Of a stretch of DNA of 47,963 nucleotides, positions 931-21,265 are shown piece by piece. Position 1 is the stretch's first letter. Each line of letters begins with the position of its first letter. This DNA comes from Acidobacteriota bacterium (lineage in GTDB: Bacteria; Acidobacteriota; Terriglobia; Acidiferrales; UBA7541): NCBI GenBank assembly GCA_003225295.1, contig QHYZ01000084.1:1-47963 (forward strand), in the 5' to 3' direction. Position numbers and translations under genes: made by a program. The notes beneath the pieces are model-generated. The model searched no databases. It had not been told where the DNA came from and worked only from the letters and a program-made list of their open reading frames with translations.

Positions 931-1441
931 GCTTCCCCCTTCACCAACCCCGATAGCCAAAACGACCTGCATTTATCCAACCAACCGCAAATTCCAGAGA
1001 ACGGCCCCAAATCTAAGAAACAGTTAGGTTTGTCACGACCTTCCAGGCGCTGTCTGTATTTGCTGGCTAGTACTAGACCGCAAAAATTACTCACCACCCG
1101 CCGTCCTCCACCTCTCCGGCTTGTTCTCCATGATGAACCCCTTAGGATGAACCCCTTAGATGGTTCCCCCAGGTATTCTCCAGACTTCTTTCGTGAATCG
1201 CGTGTTCCCGAACCCGGCCAGAAACACTAGAAACAAAACAACGGACACTTGACTTTCTCCGGCTTTCACAGGAGACTGCCACTCATCGGATTCTCGAAAC
1301 GTGGCTTGTCTCACCCACCTTTGAGTCAGTATTCGAATGGCAAATCGCTTCGCGCCAAGCGTCTCTGTCCGAAGCGAGTGTGACTGATTGCCGGCGGGAT
1401 CGAACCGGTCCCGGAACTCTACCCTCAGCCTAGGAGTTTGC
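931..1441. other. Divergent intergenic region, 511 bp
   Basis: This lies between the divergent PEGA and sialidase/kelch genes and presumably holds both promoters, but I see no convincing -35/-10 pair. It contains a perfect 2 x 14-bp tandem duplication (GATGAACCCCTTAG at 1132-1145 and 1146-1159). The short open frames here look non-coding. Confidence 0.5.
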
Positions 1442-4400
1442 ATGATCCCGTCCGTCAAATCTATTTGTGCCCTTGCCGTGTTCACAGTCTTATCCGCCTT
1501 GCTCATGCCATCGGCGTCGGTGGCTCAGGTCGCGGGACAAAACGTCAACATGGTTTCCGGCACACAGTGGCCGACGGGCGACCCCTTTCTGCAGCGGCAG
1601 AACGAACCCTCCATGGCCGTTTCCACACGCAATCCCATGCATATTCTGGCGGGATCGAACGACTATCGAAGCGTAGATCTCGAGTTGGTGCTCAGTGGCG
1701 GTGCGGAAACCGGCGATTCCTGGCTCGGATTGTTCAAGTCGTTCGACGGCGGTCTCACATGGCAGAGCACGCTGCTCCCGGGCTGCCCGCAAGCCGTTCC
1801 TCAGTGTACGGACAGCGGCGCTCTAGGCGGCCGGTACCAGGCGGCTTCCGATCCGGTCGTCCGGGCCGGCACAAACGGCATGTTCTATTACGCGGGTTTA
1901 GCTTTTGACCGCGCGACCAGTTCAACCACCGCGAGCTCCTTCAGCTCGATCTTCGTGGCCCGCTACAACGACCTGAACAACAATGAGAACGTCGATCCCA
2001 TCACTTACATCGACACCCGCATCGTCGCTACGGGGAACAGTTCGCAATTCCTCGACAAGCCCGCCATGGCCGTGGACATTCCGCGCTCCGGTGCCATGAC
2101 TTGTTCGTTCAACGCCAACGAACCCGGCACCGGTCCGAACGGCGGCACGCTTACGGTCCATCAATCCTTCCCCGCCGGCAATATCTATCTTACCTACACC
2201 GATTTCTTGACGGCCACAAAAGACAACACTACTCCCACCCATCTTATGTTCACGCGCTCGGCCGACTGCGGCGTAACCTGGAGCTCTCCGATTCAGATCA
2301 ACAGCGGAACCACGACCAGCCAGGGCAGTGCCATCGCGGTGAATCCCCTGAACGGGAATGTCTATGTGGCATGGCGTCAATTCGCCTCCACGGGAGTGCC
2401 CGACGCCATCATGATCGCGCAATCCACGAATGGCGAAACGAGTTTCGGCGCGCCGGTCCGAATTTCGACTTTTCAACCGTTCGATCAAGGAACCACTGGC
2501 ACATCGTTTCGCACGAACGCTTATCCCGCGATCACGACCGACTTTTTGGGGCTTGTTTACGTGGCCTTTTCCGCCCGGGGATTGACAGCCAGTGGTGATG
2601 CGCGCGTCGTTTTCGCAGGGTCCATCGACGGCGCGCACTGGACACCCGCCATCATGGTCGACAATCCGTCGCTGAACGCCCAAAGCAATCCCTCCGGCCG
2701 CGGCCATCAAATCATGCCGGCGATGACCTTTGCCAACGGAAGGCTTACCATCCTCTACTACGACCTGCGCCTCGACCACTACGGCGCCTTTTACACTCCG
2801 AACGCTACAAGCCCCACGGGATATGCTCAAACGCTTCTGCCCGAAGGCGAGTTGGCGCCGCCAAGTCCAGTCCCGAGCGAAGTTTTCACCAACTTCATCG
2901 ATGACAACGGACTAACCTTGCGTCGCCACACCCTGGACTTGCGAGTTCTCGAGCTCGGAATTTTCCCGACGGTGACCTTGGGGCCCTCGGTGCTCGTTTC
3001 GCAATACGCCTATGGATGCTGCGTCAACCCCAACGCTCCCGACATCGAACAGTTCAAGTTTAACGTGCCGAACCTGCCGCTCTTCTCGACGGGAGAAGTC
3101 CCCTTCCTCGGCGATTACATTGAAGTCGTGCCATCACCACTTTTTGTGCCCAATGGAAGTTCTTGGTCGTATAACTTCACGCCGAGCGTAAATCCGCTTT
3201 TCCATGCTTCTTGGACCGACAATCGCGACGTCGTGCCGCCCGCGGACGGTAACTGGCAGAACTACACCCCGGCGGTGCCTATCGGCACAACGAGTGTGTT
3301 CCAGTCGGGCAGTTCGGTGGCGAGTTGCAAGCCCGGCCAGGAAGGCATGCGCAATCAAAACATCTACACTTCTCAGATTACCGGCGGCCTCGTCGTTGGC
3401 GCCCCGGGAAATGCCAAGCAACTCGGCACCACTACGTTTAACAATATGACGTTTCCGTTCCAGCGCGCCTTTGCCGTGGAAGCGCAAAACGTCACCAACA
3501 AACCGCTCAACGTGCGCTTTACGATTGCGAACCAGCCGACGGGCGGATCTGCCTCGTTCCTGCAATTCTCCCCGTTAACCACACTCGACCTGACGATTCC
3601 CGCGTTCTCCTCGGTCTCGCGCAGCGTCTTTGTTACTTCCAGCAATCCTCAAGCACGCGTCACCGTGAACGTCGCGCAAATCAACGCCATCGGCGGTTCC
3701 GTGGTCACCAACGGTCTGAGCTCTTCAGCGGTTCTCAACCCAGACATTACTAACCCCAACATCACGAACCCGAACATCACCAATCCCAATATCACCAATC
3801 CTAATATCACCAATTTTGAAGTCACCAACCCGAACATCACCAATCCCAACATCACGAATCCGAATATCACCAACCCGAACATCACCAATCCCAACATCAC
3901 GAATCCGAATATCACCAACCCGAACATCACCAACGTTAGTGCAACCAATCCCAACATCACCAATCCCAATATCACCAACCCAGACATCACCAACCCGAAC
4001 ATCACCAATCCCAACATCACCAATCCGGACATAACCAACGGTTCGATTCAGGACGTCATCTACCCGATGAGCAACAACGGCAACACCACCGCCACCTACA
4101 CCGTGAAGACCGCGACTTTTGCTCCCCCGCCAGGCGGCGTCTTCCTGCAGCTCATCCTCAACAAGCTTTACGAGACGCCCGCCGCCAACAACTGCCAGCT
4201 CGCCAATGAAACCCATTGGGTCACCGTAGCCAACATCACCAACCCAAAGCTCTACACCCCAACGGATCCCCAACTCGGAAATCCAAACATTACCAATCCC
4301 ACCCCGAATGAAGCTTCGGTCACCCTCGCCCCAGGTGAGACGGTATACATCACGCTTCGCGTTGTAAATCCAACGCCAGCAATTACTCCGTTCAATCCGT

Positions 4401-6925
4401 TGACCTCAATCACTCCAGTGACCATCCCGCAGGCCGTAAACACGCAAACCGTCCTCTCGAATCCCGGCGCGACGATTTTTCCGCCGGTTACCGTGCCGCC
4501 TCTCATGATCACAACGGCGACGCTGCTCGATGGCATCCTTGGCAATTCCTATAGCGCGCGTATCGCCGTGCAGGGTGGAAACCCGGGCGCCGACAGGTGG
4601 AGCGTTTCTGTGGGAGCGTTGCCTACTGGCCTCAGCTTGAATACCGCGACCGGCGCAATCAGCGGCCCGCTTTCCGCCACTGGAACCTTTACGTTTACGA
4701 TCCAGGTAAAAGACACTGCCATTGGAACTCAATTTCCGCAGCACACCACGTCGCAGAGCTACACGATTCACGTCGTTCCGCCTCTGTCGCTGGCATCCGC
4801 GACGCTTCCCGGCGGAACGCAAGGCACGTTCTACAGCCAGGCAATCGTGCCCGCCGGAGGACTTTCTCCTGTCACTATTTCTCTTATCGGAGGAGCGTTA
4901 CCAGCCTCGCTCAACTTCAACAACGGCACGATTATGGGGACGCCCACCGGGACGGGCACGTCCAACTTCACCGTCCGGGCCGTCGACAGCTCAAACCCGC
5001 AGCAGGTGTTTACGCAGAGCTATAGCATCAACATCGTGATGCCCGTTCAGACCGGCGGAAATATATTCTTCATAACGAGTCCGGTCAACTCGGTAGGCGG
5101 TCATGTGCTTAGCAATAGCCCAATCACGGTTCGGGTGACTGACAACCAAGAAGCGGTCGTTCCAGGCGCCCCAGTCACGATTTCTTTCAATGGTACGCCG
5201 CCTTGTCCTACTGCCATTCTGAGCGGTACGCTGACGCAAGTGACGGACCAGACGGGTCAGGCAAGCTTTAACGACTTGAAGATCGACCGGGGCCAACAGG
5301 CTTACACGCTGAAAGCCACTGTCAGTTCCGCACCGAACGTTTTCGGGACTTCAGTCACGTTCAACGTCGAAGGTTTCTGCGACACGAGCAGTTTGACAGT
5401 GGCGCGCGAGTACCATCGGGCAGTCAGCCTGCCCAACGGGAAGGTGTTAGTCGCCGGGGGCGCGTCAAATCTAGATGGCACGGGCGCGCTGATGAGCGCG
5501 GAAATCTACGATCCCGCCACTCATACATTCGCCTCGATTGGAAACATGCATGATCCGCGGGTCGACTTCACCGCGACTCTGCTTTCGAATGGGAAAGTAT
5601 TGATTGCTGGTGGCTTCAACGACACGACCTCTCTAGCGTCCGCGGAAATCTTCGACCCCGCTGACAATTCCTTCACCTTGCTGCCTAGCGCCATGACAAG
5701 CCCGCGCTCGGAACATACCGCCACCCTCCTGCAGGATGGCACAGTGCTAATTGCTGGCGGCGACTCCGTCAACAACGCCACGACCTTGACGACCGTTGGG
5801 ACCGCGGAAATCTTCCATCCAACTACGAATTCTTTTTCCAACACCGAATTGGGCATGAACACACCACGTGCGGATCATCACGCCGATCTGCTTCCCAATG
5901 GTCAGGTGTTGATCACCGGCGGCTTTGATGCTCACCTTACGCTGCTCGCTAGTGCGGAACTATACGATCCGGTGACTCTGACGTTTGTACCGACCGGAAG
6001 CATGGCTACCGCGCGCTTGTTCCACGCATCAGCTCTGCTGAATACCGGCAAAGTCCTTGTCGCGGGCGGGCAAATCACTAGCGGCGGAGCCACAACCGCA
6101 ACGGCTGAATTGTACGATCCATCGGCTGGAACATTCAGCTCGACGGGAAGCATGGCTCAGCCACGCGCTCGCTACTTCGACACCGTGCTCCCGAATGGAT
6201 TGGTGCTCATCGAGGGTGTGGGAGGGGGCACCACTGCGTACGCCGAACTCTACGATCCAGCCACTGGTACTTTTGGTGCCGGCGGAGACCTGACTAGCAA
6301 CAACGGTGGAGGAAGAGAAGCCCTCCTGCCCGACGGCAGCGTAGTGATCGCGGGCGGGTTTAACGGTCCCAACGTATTGGCAAATGCTGAAATCTTTTAT
6401 CCACTCTCAAATCTCGGGTTCACACCTAGGACGTTTACAAGTTCGGCCAGTTTCTTTGCTGCTCTTGGTTCGATTCCCTCAACAACGGAGACATATGAAA
6501 CCCTTGCCAATGGAAGCGTGATTCTGCAAGGGGCGACTGTGGATAGCCTGACTTACTCTAGTTTCCCAGCGGGGGTAGACGGCCTCATCAATGGAAGCTT
6601 TGCCAGCATCGGCACGCAGAGTCTGACTGCCCGGCGCGGCGGTTCACCCAGCTTCTTCCTTCAGGGGGATAGTATCACCGTTACTTTCCCTGTTCCGGTC
6701 ATCGCCTCGGGGATCTTCTTCAATGCCTTTACGAGTGTGCCCGGCTCGTACTGTCTCAGCACGGCCGTGGGGACGGCCTGCAACGGCTCCACCTACGATA
6801 CTTCGTCGTTCTATTTCGTGGGGTTGATTTCGAGCACGCCGTTTACATCCGTAACTATCAAGGGCACGGGAAGTGGTGCGAGTGGATATAACGTGGACAA
6901 CCTGACCTACGTTCCGGTGCCGTAG
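1442..6925 (+). CDS. Giant secreted sialidase-like / NPNIT-repeat / Ig / kelch protein
   Basis: This is a 1827-residue exported protein. The start at 1442 is supported by AGGAG at 1432-1436 and a clean signal peptide (MIPSVKSICALAVF... cut near SVAQ). Modules in order: a sialidase/BNR-like beta-propeller, roughly residues 40-620, with Asp-box-type motifs (SFDGGLTW, SADCGVTW, STNGETSF); a linker; 20 tandem NPNIT pentapeptides, 766-865; two putative Ig (He_PIG) domains, about 1022-1200 (LPTGLSLNTATGAISG is typical); another Ig-like domain, about 1207-1313; seven kelch/galactose-oxidase-like repeats, about 1333-1651 (GKVLVAGG ... AEIYDP); and a C-terminal domain like those of PEP-CTERM proteins, ending FNVDNLTY-like, but with no PEP-CTERM or sortase anchor. 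It probably acts outside the cell in glycan binding or adhesion. Hydrolase activity is not demonstrated because catalytic residues cannot be assigned by eye. Confidence 0.85.
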   Translation: MIPSVKSICALAVFTVLSALLMPSASVAQVAGQNVNMVSGTQWPTGDPFLQRQNEPSMAVSTRNPMHILAGSNDYRSVDLELVLSGGAETGDSWLGLFKSFDGGLTWQSTLLPGCPQAVPQCTDSGALGGRYQAASDPVVRAGTNGMFYYAGLAFDRATSSTTASSFSSIFVARYNDLNNNENVDPITYIDTRIVATGNSSQFLDKPAMAVDIPRSGAMTCSFNANEPGTGPNGGTLTVHQSFPAGNIYLTYTDFLTATKDNTTPTHLMFTRSADCGVTWSSPIQINSGTTTSQGSAIAVNPLNGNVYVAWRQFASTGVPDAIMIAQSTNGETSFGAPVRISTFQPFDQGTTGTSFRTNAYPAITTDFLGLVYVAFSARGLTASGDARVVFAGSIDGAHWTPAIMVDNPSLNAQSNPSGRGHQIMPAMTFANGRLTILYYDLRLDHYGAFYTPNATSPTGYAQTLLPEGELAPPSPVPSEVFTNFIDDNGLTLRRHTLDLRVLELGIFPTVTLGPSVLVSQYAYGCCVNPNAPDIEQFKFNVPNLPLFSTGEVPFLGDYIEVVPSPLFVPNGSSWSYNFTPSVNPLFHASWTDNRDVVPPADGNWQNYTPAVPIGTTSVFQSGSSVASCKPGQEGMRNQNIYTSQITGGLVVGAPGNAKQLGTTTFNNMTFPFQRAFAVEAQNVTNKPLNVRFTIANQPTGGSASFLQFSPLTTLDLTIPAFSSVSRSVFVTSSNPQARVTVNVAQINAIGGSVVTNGLSSSAVLNPDITNPNITNPNITNPNITNPNITNFEVTNPNITNPNITNPNITNPNITNPNITNPNITNPNITNVSATNPNITNPNITNPDITNPNITNPNITNPDITNGSIQDVIYPMSNNGNTTATYTVKTATFAPPPGGVFLQLILNKLYETPAANNCQLANETHWVTVANITNPKLYTPTDPQLGNPNITNPTPNEASVTLAPGETVYITLRVVNPTPAITPFNPLTSITPVTIPQAVNTQTVLSNPGATIFPPVTVPPLMITTATLLDGILGNSYSARIAVQGGNPGADRWSVSVGALPTGLSLNTATGAISGPLSATGTFTFTIQVKDTAIGTQFPQHTTSQSYTIHVVPPLSLASATLPGGTQGTFYSQAIVPAGGLSPVTISLIGGALPASLNFNNGTIMGTPTGTGTSNFTVRAVDSSNPQQVFTQSYSINIVMPVQTGGNIFFITSPVNSVGGHVLSNSPITVRVTDNQEAVVPGAPVTISFNGTPPCPTAILSGTLTQVTDQTGQASFNDLKIDRGQQAYTLKATVSSAPNVFGTSVTFNVEGFCDTSSLTVAREYHRAVSLPNGKVLVAGGASNLDGTGALMSAEIYDPATHTFASIGNMHDPRVDFTATLLSNGKVLIAGGFNDTTSLASAEIFDPADNSFTLLPSAMTSPRSEHTATLLQDGTVLIAGGDSVNNATTLTTVGTAEIFHPTTNSFSNTELGMNTPRADHHADLLPNGQVLITGGFDAHLTLLASAELYDPVTLTFVPTGSMATARLFHASALLNTGKVLVAGGQITSGGATTATAELYDPSAGTFSSTGSMAQPRARYFDTVLPNGLVLIEGVGGGTTAYAELYDPATGTFGAGGDLTSNNGGGREALLPDGSVVIAGGFNGPNVLANAEIFYPLSNLGFTPRTFTSSASFFAALGSIPSTTETYETLANGSVILQGATVDSLTYSSFPAGVDGLINGSFASIGTQSLTARRGGSPSFFLQGDSITVTFPVPVIASGIFFNAFTSVPGSYCLSTAVGTACNGSTYDTSSFYFVGLISSTPFTSVTIKGTGSGASGYNVDNLTYVPVP
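3737..4036 (+). repeat. 15-bp tandem repeat tract coding for 20 NPNIT pentapeptides
   Basis: Twenty in-frame units of 15 bp (consensus AAYCCSAAYATCACS) run without a gap. Fifteen encode NPNIT, three NPDIT (units 1, 17, 20), one NFEVT (unit 6) and one NVSAT (unit 14). Residual NPNIT copies occur again near 4276-4296. Third codon positions vary between units, so the protein sequence is held more tightly than the DNA. The residue order (N before a central I, polar elsewhere) recalls pentapeptide-repeat beta-helices, but with Pro where those have Ala. Confidence 0.95.
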
Positions 6926-12293: not shown

Positions 12294-12339
12294 TTGACAA
12301 TCAGTATGAGGAGCGTATTCTCCCCCTGATTGTCAGGGG
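12294..12339 (+). promoter_or_regulatory. Promoter and inverted-repeat operator of the PadR-ADOP unit
   Basis: A TTGACA box (12294-12299) and TATTCT (12316-12321) are spaced 16 bp apart. TGACAATCAG (12295-12304) and CTGATTGTCA (12326-12335) form a perfect 10-bp inverted repeat that overlaps the -35 and encloses the -10. A smaller hairpin (CCCCTGA / TCAGGGG, loop TTG, 12323-12339) overlaps the downstream arm. This geometry is what an autorepressing PadR-type dimer would need. The PadR start codon follows at 12348. Confidence 0.65.
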
Positions 12340-12347
12340 AAGCGTTG

Positions 12348-12660
12348 ATGGCGAACAAGCTAGGTGATCTCGTCCCGGGCACGCTAGTCATGCTCATTCT
12401 CCAAAACGTTGGCGCTGGAACCCATGCATGGGTAGGGATCGCTCCTCCGAACCGCACAGATGAGCAACGGCGTTTTTCAGGTTAATGCGGGTTCGTTACT
12501 AGTAGCCTTTCAGAGCAGCTACAACGAGATGGACTGATCAAAGGCCAATGGAAGGCCACCGAGAATAGCCGGCGAGAAAAGTACTACACAGGACAGGGAC
12601 GAAAGAATGAGAGAGACAACTTACGGCCATCGCTAGAATCTTCCAGGCATTGTAAGGAGG
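12348..12660 (+). pseudogene. PadR-family transcriptional regulator, multiply frameshifted
   Basis: The start ATG at 12348 has AGGGGA seven bases upstream and encodes MANKLGDLVPGTLVMLIL, the typical PadR N terminus (helix 1, 'GTL..LIL'). After GTHAW the frame is lost. The winged-helix continues in a second frame as QMSNGVFQVNAGSLLVAF, and after another shift as LQRDGLIKGQWKATENSRRE and KYYTGQGRK. At least two indels therefore separate recognisable parts. PadR regulators commonly precede ADOP permeases in Acidobacteriota and repress them. Here the ADOP gene begins immediately downstream (12668), so the regulator appears dead while its target is intact. Confidence 0.85.
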
Positions 12661-12667
12661 AGGTTCC

Positions 12668-15394
12668 ATGTCATTACTCGGAAGCGTAGTGACCGGGCTC
12701 CGATCACTGTTCCGCAAGGAACGGGTTGATCGGGAATTAGACGAGGAGCTACGCGGCTATCTGGAGATGGCGGCCCATGAAAAGATGAAGCAAGGTATGA
12801 GCCACCACGATGCAGTTCGAGCAGTGCGTTTGGAAATGGGGAGTCTCGAAGCCACAAGAGAAGTCGTTCGCGCTGCCAGCTGGGAATCTCTTGTGGAGAC
12901 GTGGTGGCAGGATTTGCGCTACGCAGTACGCGGATTGAGACGCAACCCCGGCTTCGCAACCGTCGCAATTCTCTCTCTCGCTCTGGGCATCGGAGCGAAC
13001 AGCGCCATCTTTTCTGTCTTCAATGGCGTGATGCTCAAATCCCTCCCCGTCGAAAAGCCCCAAGAATTGCACCGTATCCGCTTGGAAGCCCGAACCAGAA
13101 CGGCAGGCCGTTTCTCCTATATAGAATTCCAGCGACTGCGCGACTCTGCACACCTTTCCGGGGGAATGGCAGCGATGAGCCGGGTTGTGGACGTCAACCT
13201 GCGCGTCGATGGCGAGCCACAACAGGAATCGGCCAAGATGCAGCTGGTCTCGGGCGAATACTTTCCAGTGCTCGGTGTGTATCCGGCCTTCGGCCGGACG
13301 CTGACACCGGACGATAACCGAACGCTGGGTGAACATCCGGTTGCGGTTATCAGCGGTAATTATTGGCAGCGGCGATTTGCTGGCACACCTAATGTCTTAG
13401 GACAGGGAATAGTCTTGAATGGCACGCACTTCACGATCGTCGGCGTCGGTCCGCGCAGCTTCGCCGGGGTGTGGATTGAAACGCCTGTGGATGTTTGGAT
13501 CCCGCTCATGATGCAGGCCGATGTTCGTTACGCCCAGCACTTCAGCGCCAGCAATAGTGATTATGTGAAACCGTGGATTCCCCAAGAAGGGGTCCGCTGG
13601 CTGGACGTGATTCTCCGCGTAAAGCGAGGAGCCGAGGCCGCCTCTGTCGCTTCGGTAAATTCGATATTCCAGCAATGGGTAAGGCAAGAAGCTGAGACCA
13701 TCGGCAATCTCCAGGAGCGAAAGTTGTTCTTGCAACGCGCATTGGTCTTTGATCCGTTCAACCGCGGATTTTCCGACGTGCGCCGGGACTTTGCAGTCCC
13801 CTTAACTGTGCTGATGGCGATGGTAGCTTTGGTTTTGCTGGTCGCCTGCGCCAATATTGCGAATCTTCTTCTCGCTCGAGGGGCGGCTCGCCAGCGTGAG
13901 ATTGCTGTTCGGCTGTCCATGGGTGCTGGCCGATCTCGTCTGATTCGGCAATTGCTGACGGAAAGCGTGTTGCTTGCGAGTATCGGAGCTACATTGGGTT
14001 TGTTCGTGGCCCACTGGGGCAGCGCGCTATTGGTGCGCATGGCTGTCGGCGTGAAGTCAGGCCCTGCATCTATAGCGGCCGGCGTGGACACTCATGTGCT
14101 GATATTCACAGCAGGCTTGGCCGTGGGCACTGGCATACTCTTCGGATTGGCACCAGCTTTTCGCTTGACTTGCGTGGAGTTAGGGGCCGCTCTCAAGGCA
14201 GACTCCTGCAACCTCCAGGGACGCTCGCGAATCAACTTGAACAAGATGCTGGTCAGTTCCCAGGTGGCACTCTCATTACTGCTCATCGTGGGAGCAGGTC
14301 TATTTGGCAGAAGCCTGCGGAATCTGTGGCACCTTGACAGTGGCTTCGACCGTCAACACTTGCTGACCGTAGAAATAGATCCGCAAAGTGTGGGCTACGT
14401 TCCAGCACAATTAGGTGACATTTTTCGCCGGCTCGTGGAACGCGTGGAAGCCGTTCCTGGAGTTCGTTCCGCAGCCATTGCCGGGTGCGGCTTATCGAAC
14501 CGTTGTCTCAGCTTTGAAGATGGCCTTCAAATCACGGGGTACCAGGCCCACCCCGGCGAACAGATGCTGGTTCAGGGCAACGTCGTCGGCCCGAAATACT
14601 TTTCAACTGTCGGAATGCAATTGCTCGAAGGCCGGGAGTTCAGCGATCGAGATACCGATAAGTCTCCGATGGTTGCGATTGTGAACGAGGCCATGGTGCA
14701 CCGCTATTTTGCAGGACGCAGTGCGGTCGGTCAGCGCTTCGGGAGCGGGACTCCTGATCGGCAGATCATTGGCGTGGTTCGCGACGCGCGCGTCACAAGT
14801 GTTCAACAAGCACCCGTTCCGATGGCCTACTATTTTCTTCCGCAAATGATGGCGCCGGCCGAAGCAATTGAAGTCAAGACGGCCGCAGATCCGCGATGGA
14901 GCGTAGCGGAAGTAAGGAAGGCAGCCGCTGAAGTCGATCCTAACCTCCCGATTCGGTCGGTCACCACACTTTCCGACCAAGTGGACGATAACTTGAATCA
15001 GGAACGTCTGGTTGCGTTTCTTACCCTTGCATTTGGTGGACTGGCGCTCGGGCTGGCCTGCTGTGGCTTGTACGGAGTGATGTCTTATGTAGTAGCGCGA
15101 CGCACTTCGGAATTGGGGATTCGCATGGCGCTGGGAGCATCCCCGCACCAAGTACTCTGGAGTGTCTTGTCAGAATCCTTAGGGCTTGTTGGTCTCGGGC
15201 TCGCGCTTGGTCTGCTGTCAGTGCTGGCTGCTTCGAAATTATTGTCCGGCATGCTGTTTGGCTTGACCGCAAACGATCCCCTAACGATCTCAGGAGCAAT
15301 CCTGATTCTTTTAGCAGTCGCGGCTATCGCTGCCTCCTTACCCGCGTTCCAAGCGGCAAGGGTGGATCCGTTGATGGCCCTTCGATACGAATAA
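12668..15394 (+). CDS. ADOP-family permease (MacB/FtsX-like, duplicated)
   Basis: This is a 908-residue protein with a perfect AAGGAGG-type ribosome binding site. It has an N-terminal soluble permease-prefix domain (about 1-80: RVDRELDEELRGYLEM, AVRAVRLEMGS), then a MacB-type unit with first helix [18 protein letters not shown] (about 97-125), a periplasmic core domain, and an FtsX three-helix domain from about 378 (VACANIANLLLARGAARQRE). A second copy of the same unit has its first helix near 526 and its FtsX domain from about 781 (TSELGIRMALGAS), ending DPLMALRYE. The family is thought to act in export or mechanotransmission with a separate ATPase (ABC type 3 family). No ATPase gene is nearby, hence 'orphan'. 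The length is normal and the gene looks intact. Confidence 0.93.
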   Translation: MSLLGSVVTGLRSLFRKERVDRELDEELRGYLEMAAHEKMKQGMSHHDAVRAVRLEMGSLEATREVVRAASWESLVETWWQDLRYAVRGLRRNPGFATVAILSLALGIGANSAIFSVFNGVMLKSLPVEKPQELHRIRLEARTRTAGRFSYIEFQRLRDSAHLSGGMAAMSRVVDVNLRVDGEPQQESAKMQLVSGEYFPVLGVYPAFGRTLTPDDNRTLGEHPVAVISGNYWQRRFAGTPNVLGQGIVLNGTHFTIVGVGPRSFAGVWIETPVDVWIPLMMQADVRYAQHFSASNSDYVKPWIPQEGVRWLDVILRVKRGAEAASVASVNSIFQQWVRQEAETIGNLQERKLFLQRALVFDPFNRGFSDVRRDFAVPLTVLMAMVALVLLVACANIANLLLARGAARQREIAVRLSMGAGRSRLIRQLLTESVLLASIGATLGLFVAHWGSALLVRMAVGVKSGPASIAAGVDTHVLIFTAGLAVGTGILFGLAPAFRLTCVELGAALKADSCNLQGRSRINLNKMLVSSQVALSLLLIVGAGLFGRSLRNLWHLDSGFDRQHLLTVEIDPQSVGYVPAQLGDIFRRLVERVEAVPGVRSAAIAGCGLSNRCLSFEDGLQITGYQAHPGEQMLVQGNVVGPKYFSTVGMQLLEGREFSDRDTDKSPMVAIVNEAMVHRYFAGRSAVGQRFGSGTPDRQIIGVVRDARVTSVQQAPVPMAYYFLPQMMAPAEAIEVKTAADPRWSVAEVRKAAAEVDPNLPIRSVTTLSDQVDDNLNQERLVAFLTLAFGGLALGLACCGLYGVMSYVVARRTSELGIRMALGASPHQVLWSVLSESLGLVGLGLALGLLSVLAASKLLSGMLFGLTANDPLTISGAILILLAVAAIAASLPAFQAARVDPLMALRYE

Positions 15395-16261: not shown

Positions 16262-16400
16262 AACGCGCGGTTGCGCGGTAGCTCAACTCGGCTGTTTACA
16301 CAGAACTTCAAATCGCATAAATTGTTTCTCTGGGGTTGGTTAACAGCCTCGGGACCATTCCCAAATCCCTCTTTGGTGTCCCCCATATGTCCCCAGCCAT
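16262..16400 (+). repeat. Dispersed tRNA-Asn-half repeat, copy A (degenerate)
   Basis: This contains a shortened tRNA-Asn 5' half (CGCGGTAGCTCAACTCGGCTGTTTA, about 10 bp of the D-arm/anticodon region deleted), then the tail shared with copies B and C: CAGAACTTCAAATC, GTTTCTCTGG, GGTTAACAGCCTCGGGACC, and a GTCCCC-rich stretch. GGCTGTT (16290) and TTAACAGCC (16340-16348) form the outer arms of the conserved hairpin. Confidence 0.75.
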
Positions 16401-16425
16401 CAGCTTAGTTAGGGGAAAGACCTCA

Positions 16426-16791
16426 ATGGTAAAGCAGGTATTACCTGGATTGCTCTTGGAGGCTGCCCACAGTAGACGTTGCTATTGCGGTCAGGCATTG
16501 ACATTGAACGCCAACGCAACGCAACTCGGTACTTACGCGGCCCAGGTTGCCCAACGGCTGGGGGTGGGCATTGAAATCGAATACGAAACCAACACCCGCC
16601 CCAACCTAACGGCGCTGCAACAATTCACTGGCGGCTACCGGGCGAACGAGCCTTACGACGGCACTGGCGCGGATCCGGCCACTCGCTTGACCACCGACCT
16701 CGCGCTGTTTGCTCTTGATCAAGGACTAGAATTACGGGGCCAGTTAATGTCGCATACTGGAGCCCTCCTGCTGAGATGGACTATGGACTGA
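16426..16791 (+). CDS. Hypothetical protein upstream of the multihaem cytochrome
   Basis: This is a 121-residue frame starting MVKQVLPGLLLEAAHS with AGGGGA about 10 bases upstream. The stop is 12 bp before the cytochrome start, so the two could be co-transcribed. I do not recognise a family. The middle is acidic and polar (GVGIEIEYETNTRPNLTALQ, EPYDGTGADPATRL) and there is no signal peptide or membrane helix. It could be a decayed fragment; the frame extends upstream into repeat copy A, which argues against a longer start. Confidence 0.35.
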   Translation: MVKQVLPGLLLEAAHSRRCYCGQALTLNANATQLGTYAAQVAQRLGVGIEIEYETNTRPNLTALQQFTGGYRANEPYDGTGADPATRLTTDLALFALDQGLELRGQLMSHTGALLLRWTMD

Positions 16792-16803: not shown

Positions 16804-18897
16804 TTGAAGAGAGGTGCGCCCATTTTTGTCGGTTTCTTATGCTGGTTGATGCTTCTCGCCGGGCCGGGAGCCAGTTTGGCCTTTCCCGCGCCGCAGCGGC
16901 AAACCACGCGAAGCCCGCATGGTCCGCTCGCGATTCCCTGTGAGAACTGCCATACCGCGGCGGGGTGGCGTCCGATTCGCGCCGTTCCGGAGTTCGATCA
17001 CAACAAGACGGCGTATCCGCTTCGCGGCATGCACGAAAAGGTGCAGTGCACGCAGTGCCACGCCAAGCCGGTATTCACCGACGTCGGCAAGCTTTGTCAG
17101 GATTGTCATGCTGACATTCACCAGCGAAAAATGGGTACGGACTGCGCGCAATGTCACTCGGTCCAAGGTTGGAATATTGCGGTCCAGAAAGTAAAAGATC
17201 ACCAGAATCGTTTTCCGCTCCTAGGCGCTCACGCGGCAGTGCAATGCGAGGATTGCCACAAGAGCGCCGCGGTTGGACAGTTCCAAGGCTTGTCTACGGC
17301 GTGCGTCTCCTGCCACTTGAAGGACTATCAGAAAACTACGAATCCGAATCACGTCAGCTCGCAATTCGCGACCACCTGCGAATCGTGCCACTCGTCGTTC
17401 GATAGTTGGTTGGGAGCAACCTTCAATCATGGCGCACCTCCGATCAACTTCCCCTTGACCCTGGGCCATGCGAACGTGCCCTGTGCCTCTTGCCACGTCA
17501 ACGGCAACTATAGCCTTCAGATCGCGCCGACCGACTGCGGGAACTCAGGGTGTCACCTGACGACCTGGCGGCAAACCAATAATCCGGTGCACTCCACGGC
17601 CGGGCCGGCTTTTGCGGTGGGGAATTGCGCCAGTTGCCATACCACCAAGGGTTGGGACTCGGCGTCCTTCGATCACAGCGTGACGGGCTTCACGCTAACC
17701 GGAGCGCATGCTTCACCCACGCCCACCCCCTGCGCTTCCTGCCACGTCAGCAACAACTACACGCTGAACTCGACGGATTGCATGGGCTGCCACCTGGCGG
17801 CGTGGCAGAGCACGCCGACCTTTGGCGGGAGCGTACCGGATCACATCAAGGCGGGTTTCCCGTCGACGGCGTCCGCTTGCTCGACCTGCCATCCCATCAC
17901 GAGGTGGGCCGACGGGAAGTTCGACCACAACGCGTTTGGGTTCCCGCTGACGAACTCTCACGCGCTGGTGGCCAACGGCGGCAAGGTAGCGTCTTGCGCT
18001 TCCTGCCACATCGGCAACAACTACAGCCTGAATATCGCGGCGACTGACTGCGGCAATGCGGGATGCCACCTGACGACGTGGCAGACAACAAATAACCCGG
18101 TGCACCCAAAGGCCGGCGCGCCGTTCGCGGCGGCGAACTGTTCGACCTGCCACAACACGATCAGTTGGAATACGGCGACCTTCGACCACAGCGCGACGGG
18201 CTGGCCGCTGTCGGGTTCGCACCAGATGGCACCTGCGGGAAAGGTCGTGGCCTGCACCGATTGCCACGTGGGGAACAACTATACTTTCACGGCAGCGAAC
18301 ACGGATTGCATGGGCTGCCACCTGGCCGCCTGGCAGAGCACCGCAACGCTTGGCGGGAACGTTCCGAATCACATCACGGCGGGCTTCCCGAGCTCACAAT
18401 GCGCGACCTGCCACGACACGCTGCTGTGGGTGGATGGCAAGTTCGATCACAGCGCCACGGGCTGGCCGCTGCAGGGAGCGCACGTCACCACGCCCTGCGC
18501 TTCGTGCCACATCGGCGCCAATGCGTTCGCCCTTACTTCGGCGAACACGGATTGCTATGGATGCCATCAGGCGGCCTGGTTGAGTACGCAAACGCTGGGC
18601 GGCGCCGTGCCGAACCACGTTGCCGCGCTGTATCCAACAACCTGCGTAACCTGCCACACCACCTGGGTGACTACGGGCTGGCTGGGGGCTACCTTTAATC
18701 ACACCTGGTTCCGCATTCCGCATAATGGCTCGGTCTGTTCGGACTGCCACTTGGTCTCGACGGACTACTCGACATTCTCCTGCATTAACTGCCATACCCG
18801 CGCTAATGCGCACAACAAGGGGAGTACGGACCAGCAACACCAGGGCAATGGCAACTACACTTACACCGCGACGAGTTGTTACAACTGTCACAAGTGA
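16804..18897 (+). CDS. Secreted multihaem c-type cytochrome, 25 haem-binding motifs
   Basis: This is a 697-residue protein with a TTG start (GAGGTGG seven bases upstream) and a signal peptide (hydrophobic FVGFLCWLMLLAG, cut near SLAFP). I count 23 CXXCH motifs plus two CX4CH motifs (CGNSGCH, CGNAGCH) in near-identical sequence contexts, so up to 25 covalent haems at about 28 residues per haem. The sequence is modular: units of CASCHxxxNY, DC..CHL..W, a gap, C..CH...W, then FDH.. G.PL..H, repeated about five times. The FDH and H(A/Q) histidines are likely second axial ligands. It resembles cytochrome c3-like/7-haem domain assemblies used for periplasmic or extracellular electron transfer. There is no membrane anchor. 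No cytochrome maturation or porin genes are adjacent. Confidence 0.93.
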   Translation: MKRGAPIFVGFLCWLMLLAGPGASLAFPAPQRQTTRSPHGPLAIPCENCHTAAGWRPIRAVPEFDHNKTAYPLRGMHEKVQCTQCHAKPVFTDVGKLCQDCHADIHQRKMGTDCAQCHSVQGWNIAVQKVKDHQNRFPLLGAHAAVQCEDCHKSAAVGQFQGLSTACVSCHLKDYQKTTNPNHVSSQFATTCESCHSSFDSWLGATFNHGAPPINFPLTLGHANVPCASCHVNGNYSLQIAPTDCGNSGCHLTTWRQTNNPVHSTAGPAFAVGNCASCHTTKGWDSASFDHSVTGFTLTGAHASPTPTPCASCHVSNNYTLNSTDCMGCHLAAWQSTPTFGGSVPDHIKAGFPSTASACSTCHPITRWADGKFDHNAFGFPLTNSHALVANGGKVASCASCHIGNNYSLNIAATDCGNAGCHLTTWQTTNNPVHPKAGAPFAAANCSTCHNTISWNTATFDHSATGWPLSGSHQMAPAGKVVACTDCHVGNNYTFTAANTDCMGCHLAAWQSTATLGGNVPNHITAGFPSSQCATCHDTLLWVDGKFDHSATGWPLQGAHVTTPCASCHIGANAFALTSANTDCYGCHQAAWLSTQTLGGAVPNHVAALYPTTCVTCHTTWVTTGWLGATFNHTWFRIPHNGSVCSDCHLVSTDYSTFSCINCHTRANAHNKGSTDQQHQGNGNYTYTATSCYNCHK

Positions 18898-19500: not shown

Positions 19501-21102
19501 TCAGCGCGTATACCCCGTATTGATGAACTCATCCACGTCTTTGTGCAGTTTGTGATGCTCTTTCTCGTCAATGTACATCATGTGCCCGGCCTCGTAATAA
19601 GCGAAGCTGACGTTTTTCCGCACCGGCGGCTCGATATTCATGTGCGCAAACGTGTTCTCGATGCCGTTGAACGGCGTGGCCACGTCATAGTAGCCGCACA
19701 GCACCAGCACTTTCAGGTAACTCTGCTGGGTCATCGCCGCGCGTAAAACTTCCGCCACTTCCGTATTGCCCGTCTGGTCCCACGGCCGCACATTCGCCGT
19801 CACCGTGTAGTACGCGTCGCTGTCCCACTTGAGTTCGCGCCGCACGTAGTCGTGAAATGTCGCCACAAAGGCACCCTCATAAGACGCTTCGCTCGGGTCG
19901 TATTCCACGCGCTCGCCGGCGGCGTCCGCGTCCATGCCCTCGAACCGCGAATCCAGCCGCCCGATGGTGCGTCGTTTGTCGCGCTCCAGTTCCTTGAACC
20001 AGCGGAAAGGGCTGATCCGCAGGTTGGTTTCTTCGATGTATTTTGGAGTAAGCCCAGTGAAGCGCGCCACGTCCGCAACGACTTTTTGGTGCTCTGCCGC
20101 GGAAAGAGCATCGCCCTTTTCAAGCGCCGCGGCATATTCACCGTGGGCGAATTCGCGTGCTTGCTGCGCTACCTGCTCGACAGTGAGGTTCTGCAAGTCG
20201 GACGGCAACAGATGGTGATACCAGGCCGTCGTCGTATAGGTTGGCAGGAAAAATTCCGAACGGTTGTCTGCGCCCCAATTGGAGAATGCCACCGAGGAGA
20301 GCAGCGCAATGCCGCTCAGGTAGATTTGATGGCGCTCCTGAAGAACGCCGGCCAGCTCCGCCGACCGCGTCGTGCCGTAGCTTTCGCCAATCAGAAATTT
20401 GGGCGAGGCCCAGCGCTCGTTCCGTGTGATGTACTGGTAGATGAAATCCGCGAACCAGTTGGCGTCCGCGATGATCCCGTGAAATTGACTCGGAGCTTCC
20501 CCCGGCGCGGGGCGGCTGAAGCCCGTCGAGATGGCGTCAATGAAAACCAGATCCGTTGTGTCTAGGAACGAATCTTCATTGTCCACCACCGTATAGGGTG
20601 CGGGCATGCCGTGGCCATCCGGCGTCAGAACTACCCGCTTTGGTCCCATGCCCATGTGCGTGAACAACGACGCCGAGCCCGGCCCGCCGTTGTAAACAAA
20701 GCTGATGGGCCGCTTGGCCATGTCGGACACGCCGTCTTTTGTGTACGCCACGTAAAACATCGTGGCCTTCGGCGTGCCGTCATCCGCTTTGATGTTGTAG
20801 GTCGCGGCCGTCGCTATGTACTTGATCTCCTGCCCGCCGATGCGTGCGGAATGATGCGTCACCGAAGATTTTTCTTCCGCCACCGGGGGGTGCTGCGCCG
20901 CTTTTCCTTGCGCTGCTTCAGGTTGCGAAGCCGCTTGTTCCGGCGGGCGCTGCGTGCGCTGGCGTTGCTGCGGCGGTTGCTGTGCCGGTGGGACAGTCAT
21001 TTGCGGCGATGGCGATTCTGCAGGACGTTCGCTTTGGCTCATCGCCGCAGGCGCAGCGAACAGTACACAAATTCCAATCAGCACGCACGGGTCTCTTCTC
21101 AT
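19501..21102 (-). CDS. Secreted S10-family serine carboxypeptidase
   Basis: This is a 533-residue protein. The start at 21102 has GAGAGG six bases upstream; a frame extension to 21123 lacks such support. A signal peptide (VLIGICVLFAAPAAMSQ) is followed by a Pro/Gln/Ala-rich linker to about residue 75. Peptidase motifs are FVYNGGPGSASLF (the oxyanion/substrate-binding GGPG), IGESYGTTR with nucleophile Ser241, CGYYDVATPF with Asp473, and YEAGHMMY with His507: a complete alpha/beta-hydrolase triad. S10 enzymes remove C-terminal residues from peptides, here in the periplasm or outside. The lone Cys residues differ from the disulfide-rich eukaryotic members, as expected for bacterial S10. It follows the ADOP permease by 163 bp on the same strand, so co-transcription is possible. 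Confidence 0.93.
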   Translation of the reverse strand: MRRDPCVLIGICVLFAAPAAMSQSERPAESPSPQMTVPPAQQPPQQRQRTQRPPEQAASQPEAAQGKAAQHPPVAEEKSSVTHHSARIGGQEIKYIATAATYNIKADDGTPKATMFYVAYTKDGVSDMAKRPISFVYNGGPGSASLFTHMGMGPKRVVLTPDGHGMPAPYTVVDNEDSFLDTTDLVFIDAISTGFSRPAPGEAPSQFHGIIADANWFADFIYQYITRNERWASPKFLIGESYGTTRSAELAGVLQERHQIYLSGIALLSSVAFSNWGADNRSEFFLPTYTTTAWYHHLLPSDLQNLTVEQVAQQAREFAHGEYAAALEKGDALSAAEHQKVVADVARFTGLTPKYIEETNLRISPFRWFKELERDKRRTIGRLDSRFEGMDADAAGERVEYDPSEASYEGAFVATFHDYVRRELKWDSDAYYTVTANVRPWDQTGNTEVAEVLRAAMTQQSYLKVLVLCGYYDVATPFNGIENTFAHMNIEPPVRKNVSFAYYEAGHMMYIDEKEHHKLHKDVDEFINTGYTR

Positions 21103-21265
21103 TTCACACCTCTCCCTTGGCAATCAGAAAATTTCTCGGGCCACCAGGAATTCGGCAAGTGCACCAAAAAGGTTCCGCCCACTCCGCGAAACCCCTGATT
21201 GGACGGACAAACAGTTTGTCGAGTTTCACCTTCAGGTTGGGGAAAGCGGTCCCGCTCGCGGCGCT

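Follow-up and report, generated by a model that had tools for sequence, protein, structure and literature searches.

The multihaem cytochrome gene and its layout

The window, a 47,963-bp stretch of Acidobacteriota contig QHYZ01000084.1, contained a gene for a secreted-looking multihaem cytochrome, referred to here as the expandable cytochrome or wire. Its parts are listed in Table 1. Motif counting in the 697 codons gave 23 CX2CH, no CX3CH and two CX4CH motifs, so that the count of 23 CXXCH and two CX4CH in the initial annotation, and its density of one site per 28 residues, were reproduced. This was far above the chance level for CX2CH, which had a mean of 0.26 and a maximum of 4 in 2000 residue shuffles of the protein. 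Of 51 cysteines, 50 were inside haem motifs and the remaining one was in the signal-like N-terminus; 26 histidines were outside the motifs. Pfam analysis revealed a match to Cytochrome_C7 (97.9 bits; cut-off 24.8), with related class III cytochromes.

Cutting the chain at the haem sites displayed the internal modular repeat that had been claimed: haem site 1 was followed by seven triheme bricks and a C-cap (1 + 21 + 3 = 25). The protein is thus a long haem chain, also as proposed, with 25 sites in one polypeptide. No anchor was seen in the protein, and neither a lipid anchor nor an export signal placing it outside the cell was found. The AlphaFold model obtained from 31 sequences was unusable (pLDDT 42).

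Table 1. Positions in the window of the expandable cytochrome gene, its parts and the small frame upstream.
Feature	Position	Strand	Basis
Expandable multihaem cytochrome (MHC2), 697 aa, 25 haem sites, TTG start	16804..18897	+	ORF and motif count; purifying selection
Signal-peptide-like N-terminus, residues 1-26	16804..16881	+	judged by eye
N-terminal RSPHG...CENCH, haem site 1 (the "+1" of 3n+1)	16909..16953	+	cut at haem sites
Triheme bricks 1 and 2 (conserved N-cap)	16954..17391	+	
Triheme bricks 3 to 7	17392..18657	+	
Brick 3	17392..17640	+	
Brick 4	17641..17892	+	
Brick 5	17893..18153	+	
Brick 6	18154..18414	+	
Brick 7	18415..18657	+	
CX4CH site CGNSGCH (residue 245), slot 2 of brick 3	17536..17556	+	
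CX4CH site CGNAGCH (residue 416), slot 2 of brick 5	18049..18069	+	
C-cap, three haem sites	18658..18894	+	
Small upstream frame, probably not a gene	16336..16791	+	no Pfam family; frame broken in L064

The cytochrome gene was flanked by a MacB/FtsX permease gene upstream and an S10 peptidase gene downstream. The small frame noted earlier 12 bp upstream was present, but it was rejected as a partner gene and is probably not a gene, because the same frame in the sister record L064 carried in-frame stops and indels. Two stretches of the window were without a DNA match in L064. One of them (12317-15173) covered most of the permease gene (12668-15394) and was bordered in L064 by flanks approximately 92-93% identical to the window; it is therefore an insertion in the window or a deletion in L064. 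The other (20105-21127) covered much of the peptidase gene (19501-21123), which appears shortened in the sister. Further upstream, the product of positions 1388-6925 was 1845 aa long and contained Kelch and Ig-like (He_PIG) repeats.

Relatives, the three-haem step and the CX4CH sites

Relatives were obtained by a profile search of genome contigs with the N-cap, used in place of a motif pattern that missed many family members. The search gave 123 loci, of which 80 were analysed. According to their titles, the 80 were of Acidobacteriota origin with one exception, L133, which is from a bin labelled Bordetella parapertussis; its locus was placed among Acidobacteriota in the N-cap tree, and the bin is probably mislabelled. 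In the same tree, the window formed a clade with L064, L065 and L066 (support 100/90). With the window's own genome counted, matches were present in 20 of 61 genomes searched in its family at E ≤ 0.001 and in 47 of 396 searched in its phylum at E ≤ 1e-20; some of the weaker genome matches may be merely related cytochromes.

The typical brick had the form FDH...GxH..CxxCH...C(x2 or x4)CH...PxH...CxxCH. The stretches leading up to slots 1, 2 and 3 held exactly 2, 0 and 1 extra histidines in 478 of 540 bricks (58 proteins), and at least these numbers in 539. Three CXnCH sites with three distal histidines per brick suggest, on sequence grounds, that the bricks are probably all bis-His triheme units.

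The named set consisted of the 80 loci and the window (81 in all). Fourteen proteins were open at a contig end, and 61 of the other 67 ended near a haem site and were counted as C-terminally complete. The site totals of these 61, the window included, ranged from 16 to 61 and equalled 3n+1 in 59; with CX2CH counted alone, 46 of 61 fitted. L073 was among the 61 despite having no C-cap; it was left out of the brick count (60 proteins), for which bricks were taken from the 58 obeying 3n+1. Under a stricter C-cap rule, which retained 53 proteins, 51 fitted. The two rule-breakers in the named set were L102 (42 sites) and L136 (23 sites, two sites lost). In L136, which is also listed as L051, one site reads CTSCN and one brick is without slot 2. 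The sequences behind these counts are related and not independent, though close relatives differ in their totals (window 25 and L066 28; L101 22 and L110 34; L117 43 and L140 55).

A later set was drawn from 18 genomes that do not belong to the window's class; it comprised 20 regions, with the C-cap read from the last 30 residues. All 14 of its C-capped wires followed 3n+1 (10, 10, 13, 16, 16, 19, 19, 22, 22, 25, 28, 31, 40 and 46 sites), and the overall totals were 10 to 61. Left out of the 14 were L155, L158 and L160, without a C-cap (18, 18 and 28 sites), L168 and L170, open at a contig end, and L167, a fusion. Only L164 had a DNA match longer than 500 bp to the named set, at 75%. In two Acidobacteriota genomes of the later set (L167:5875-10893 and L168:4710-8246), a 23-haem-type cytochrome and the expandable cytochrome formed one frame; the fusion in L167 had 54 sites, read as 23+31.

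All 46 CX4CH sites inside bricks of the named set occupied slot 2, and the initial annotation had indeed placed the two in the window at repeat positions equivalent to CXXCH. Outside the bricks, two further CX4CH and all eight CX3CH were found, every one in the C-cap. CX4CH was present in 18 of the 80 loci, namely the window's clade plus L114. Of the 17 proteins with CX3CH or CX4CH, all obeyed 3n+1 if those sites were counted and only 4 if they were not. The CX4CH sites had been taken as likely true haem sites, with their conservation chosen beforehand as the check; it held, and they are very probably real haem sites, judged from the sequences, because they are needed for 3n+1 and always fall in slot 2 within bricks.

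A search of PDB sequences with the brick profile gave as best match 1z1n, a 16-haem cytochrome (E 1.5e-7), followed by nine-haem c, c3 and two Geobacter entries, 3oue (E 0.027), which we take to be GSU1996, and 3ov0 (E 0.045). The latter is named as GSU1996 in the excerpted text of PMC10138318. As sequence matches, these denote superfamily likeness only.

Partner genes, detached copies and plasmid copies

In the usual locus, the expandable cytochrome gene was accompanied by genes for a 23-site cytochrome, a b-type-like inner-membrane protein and an outer-membrane barrel with a predicted 22 strands; an Fe-S flavoprotein gene was also often present. Among the 53 relatives with at least 2 kb downstream, the barrel gene was within 400 bp of the wire gene in 48 and was not within that distance in five. 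The earlier statement that no porin or reductase gene lies nearby accordingly holds for the window copy and not for most of its relatives. In those of the loci with enough sequence, the inner-membrane protein gene was found in 42 of 45, and a flavoprotein with 4Fe-4S motifs in 31 of 37, either strand being accepted (L109 has it on the other strand).

The partner cytochrome was found upstream in 53 of the 70 loci with at least 2.4 kb upstream, in L104 at a distance of 4.9 kb. It was not found intact in the other 17, among them L099, in which it is split in frame. Where found, it had exactly 23 CXXCH in 52 of 53 cases, the exception being L137 with 21. The later set gave 23 sites in 13 of 15 partners and 20 sites in L158 and L163; no partner was seen in L155, L165 and L166. 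The neighbour genes were not found in every region of the later set, and none was seen in L158 and L170.

The barrel model (pLDDT 77.4, pTM 0.59) showed 22 strands by our own count after an N-terminal domain. Pfam analysis of three barrel proteins gave no family, and the barrel profile had no meaningful match among PDB sequences. The 50 matches listed in the fold search (Foldseek, VIA-align) included ushers, TonB-dependent receptors, Occ porins and AlgE, and the modelled barrel appears to resemble outer-membrane barrels in general; MtrB and PioB were not among these 50, which is uninformative either way. The inner-membrane protein carried two WX3HX13H motifs in 35 of 36 sequences (by chance, in 1 of 7200 shuffled sequences) and SGXXG in 36 of 36. 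By our own hydropathy count, 10 of the 36 had five segments and 21 had six, so that the protein may or may not have five helices.

The window copy is an orphan paralogue with neither barrel nor partner gene adjoining. Parts of the usual set were found in its own genome on contigs C245, C42 and C368. At its end, C245 encoded a 23-site partner together with the first part of a further expandable cytochrome, and this end overlapped C42 exactly over 182 bp; C42 continued an expandable cytochrome and carried a whole barrel gene. Joined on paper, C245 and C42 gave 37 sites (our own sum), though the link is not unique, since the start of C184 also overlapped C42 by 135 bp. C368 contained the terminal part of a different barrel gene, together with an inner-membrane protein gene that was intact and a flavoprotein frame running to the end of the examined stretch. 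C233 held part of a further copy, with no barrel gene in its first 15 kb. An apparently broken inner-membrane-protein gene in this genome was rejected, the stops being in an over-long query start and the 314-aa frame being intact. The assembly (C245, C42, C184 and C233) breaks inside cytochrome repeats, and two contigs overlap one contig end; repeat-rich cytochromes are therefore likely cut or collapsed in short-read MAGs.

The dN/dS ratio of the window gene was 0.315 against L064, 0.217 against L065 (shared part) and 0.168 against L066, and 25 sites were present in both the window and L064. These ratios indicate purifying selection on the window copy, a detached paralogue in a gp2-like Acidobacteriota lineage. 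Orphans require at least two changes on the N-cap tree, with orphan labels assigned by the analyst; for L064, L065, L066 and L073, no more than 650-1606 bp of downstream sequence was available to assign them, and L089, with 8.9 kb downstream and no barrel, was yet not labelled orphan.

Plasmid pEMTOL02 of Emticicia oligotrophica DSM 17448 (Bacteroidota; L148) carried the same gene set in the order ccsA, inner-membrane protein, flavoprotein, 23-CXXCH cytochrome, 40-CXXCH cytochrome and barrel protein. The expandable cytochrome with 40 CXXCH corresponds to 3 × 13 + 1, and profile matches were obtained for the flavoprotein (E 3e-142) and the barrel protein (E 1.5e-23). Among other plasmid records, none matched the Emticicia expandable cytochrome at E ≤ 1e-10. 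A Methylophaga pinxianii plasmid (L149:7073-10427) carried a 2Fe-2S protein, an inner-membrane-protein match (E 1e-6) and a short cytochrome, with a heavy-metal ATPase near. A Sphingobium plasmid (L150:3351-6708) had a similar gene order, and its cytochrome matched the 23-haem partner.

Proposed role and comparison with known systems

We read the protein as a secreted single-chain wire of triheme bricks that in most relatives would serve a PCC3-type conduit as its partner of variable length, probably outside the cell, the window copy being a detached paralogue; the probability of this reading is put at roughly 0.65. From the gene content and the PCC3 model we infer a route in which electrons from the quinone pool, or from a soluble donor by way of the flavoprotein, would enter the b-type-like inner-membrane protein. 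From there they would reach the 23-haem cytochrome, cross the barrel and travel along the haem-loaded bricks to an acceptor outside; the reverse direction is equally open. The orphan would probably be an alternative wire used with a conduit whose genes lie on other contigs of the same genome.

The wire might instead be a periplasmic haem chain, acting as a capacitor or as a periplasm bridge like GSU1996, with the barrel using the 23-haem partner alone. The tandem triheme domains of GSU1996 and their periplasmic capacitor role (as given in the excerpts of PMC10138318), the lack of a visible anchor and the window copy without an adjoining barrel gene favour such a chain. However, totals of 10 to 61 sites would sit poorly with a fixed periplasm width, and in 48 of the 53 loci with enough sequence the wire and barrel genes are neighbours, which makes a periplasmic chain unlikely. 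Alternatively, the window copy may be decaying after duplication and have no function today. Its lack of operon partners would agree with this, as would the frame of its relative L065, which loses the C-terminal part; the dN/dS ratios and the 25 sites kept in both the window and L064 argue against decay, which we regard as improbable.

A polymeric filament like OmcS, OmcE or OmcZ, with many copies stacked as a nanowire, would suit a protein that is secreted-looking and haem-dense and, in the window, encoded apart from the conduit. The comparison with these cytochromes proposed in the initial annotation showed no likeness by sequence, as the window protein had no match among PDB sequences at E ≤ 1. 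In addition, no chain named OmcS, OmcE or OmcZ was among the 60 of 71 brick-profile matches listed (weak evidence), and length varies through internal duplication. The data agree better with c7-like triheme units joined in tandem in one covalent chain, and a filament is very unlikely. Weak profile likeness to DmsE-type and HmcA cytochromes could point to a redox enzyme (nitrite, sulfur or other) and not a wire, but the NCBIfam scores of the window protein were far under the cut-offs (DmsE, 20.5 against 192.2; HmcA, NF045713, 16 against 400). Three distal histidines per brick suggest no open haem site, and bricks are gained and lost between close relatives, unlike an active site; an enzyme is hardly credible.

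If the wire reading holds, the loci may form a cross-phylum conduit class with one cytochrome approximately locked at 23 haems and a wire growing in three-haem steps (n 3 to 20), the number of steps being selected for reach past the cell surface, and gp2-like Acidobacteria retaining detached wires that differ in length and share a conduit. This wider picture is tentative, and we would not yet favour it. Acidobacteriota are abundant in soils, and the electron exchange of most of them with minerals or humic matter is little known; the present results offer a gene set to look for and a simple sequence rule (23 and 3n+1). The set is carried by the named strains Occallatibacter savannae AB23 (L110) and E. 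oligotrophica DSM 17448. Natural wires built from a single kind of brick, with 10 to 61 haem sites, would allow electron transfer to be measured against wire length.

Like MtrCAB, which combines a barrel with multihaem cytochromes, the loci pair a barrel with multihaem cytochromes. They differ from it in the low DmsE score given above, and group 5 of the Acidobacteriia MtrCAB clusters, in the excerpts of PMC8805035, has no inner-membrane quinone oxidoreductase gene nearby. The NCBIfam OmcA/MtrC model gave 51 against a cut-off of 209.3 on the 61-site relative L120, and nanowire_3heme (TIGR04257) gave 19.4 against 40 on the window protein. The tandem triheme domains in one chain are shared with GSU1996, which has four such domains, 12 haems and one His-Met haem per domain (excerpts of PMC10138318); in the present family, by contrast, each brick has three distal histidines, the chain reaches as many as 61 sites, and there is a porin locus. 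The large ANME cytochromes are likewise very haem-rich single chains (up to 86 motifs), but they are archaeal and several have S-layer domains, according to the excerpts of PMC9012536.

Within Acidobacteriota, the portions of the literature consulted describe, besides MtrCAB group 5, two porin-cytochrome clusters of a Holophaga (PMC7399161) and a wastewater survey in which every genome encoded large multihaem proteins, the substrate of most being unknown (PMC8100337). An unbinned bog metagenome contig encodes a 51-site cytochrome of a putative porin complex (PMC6344600, in part). In the limited collection searched, nothing joined PCC3, multihaem cytochromes and Acidobacteriota, or Emticicia, multihaem cytochromes and extracellular electron transfer.

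The closest architecture is that of PCC3 (He et al. 2017, PMC5566968), described from Alpha-, Beta- and Gammaproteobacteria. It comprises a porin, an extracellular cytochrome with repeats (median 34, up to 85 haems), a periplasmic cytochrome (median 21) and a five-helix inner-membrane protein that carries SGXXG and two WX3HX13H motifs. By architecture and this published description, we class the present loci as PCC3-type conduits whose haem wire varies in length and is probably extracellular: both have a barrel, a cytochrome of near-constant count, a repeat-rich variable one and an inner-membrane protein (approximately 300 aa) in which SGXXG and two WX3HX13H motifs occur. That such proteins change length by domains had been proposed before: the excerpts of PMC7399161 report Burkholderiales clusters (24 and 49 haems) with CxxCH-domain indels between close relatives, and note for Chloroflexi that motifs may be added or removed in pairs or in multiples.

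The differences from PCC3 begin with the hosts, which are Acidobacteriota and a Bacteroidota plasmid instead of Proteobacteria. The partner here has 23 haems, compared with 21, 24 or 27 in Gallionellaceae PCC3, and the variable cytochrome is almost strictly 3n+1, unlike the Gallionellaceae counts of 10-35 in the excerpts of PMC10734462. The Fe-S flavoprotein is not among the parts listed in the PCC3 descriptions consulted, and CX4CH in slot 2 and orphan copies also set the family apart. The known PCC3 picture is thereby extended by a phylum, a near-fixed 23, a near-strict three-haem quantum, a flavoprotein, a plasmid copy, slot-2 CX4CH sites and orphans.
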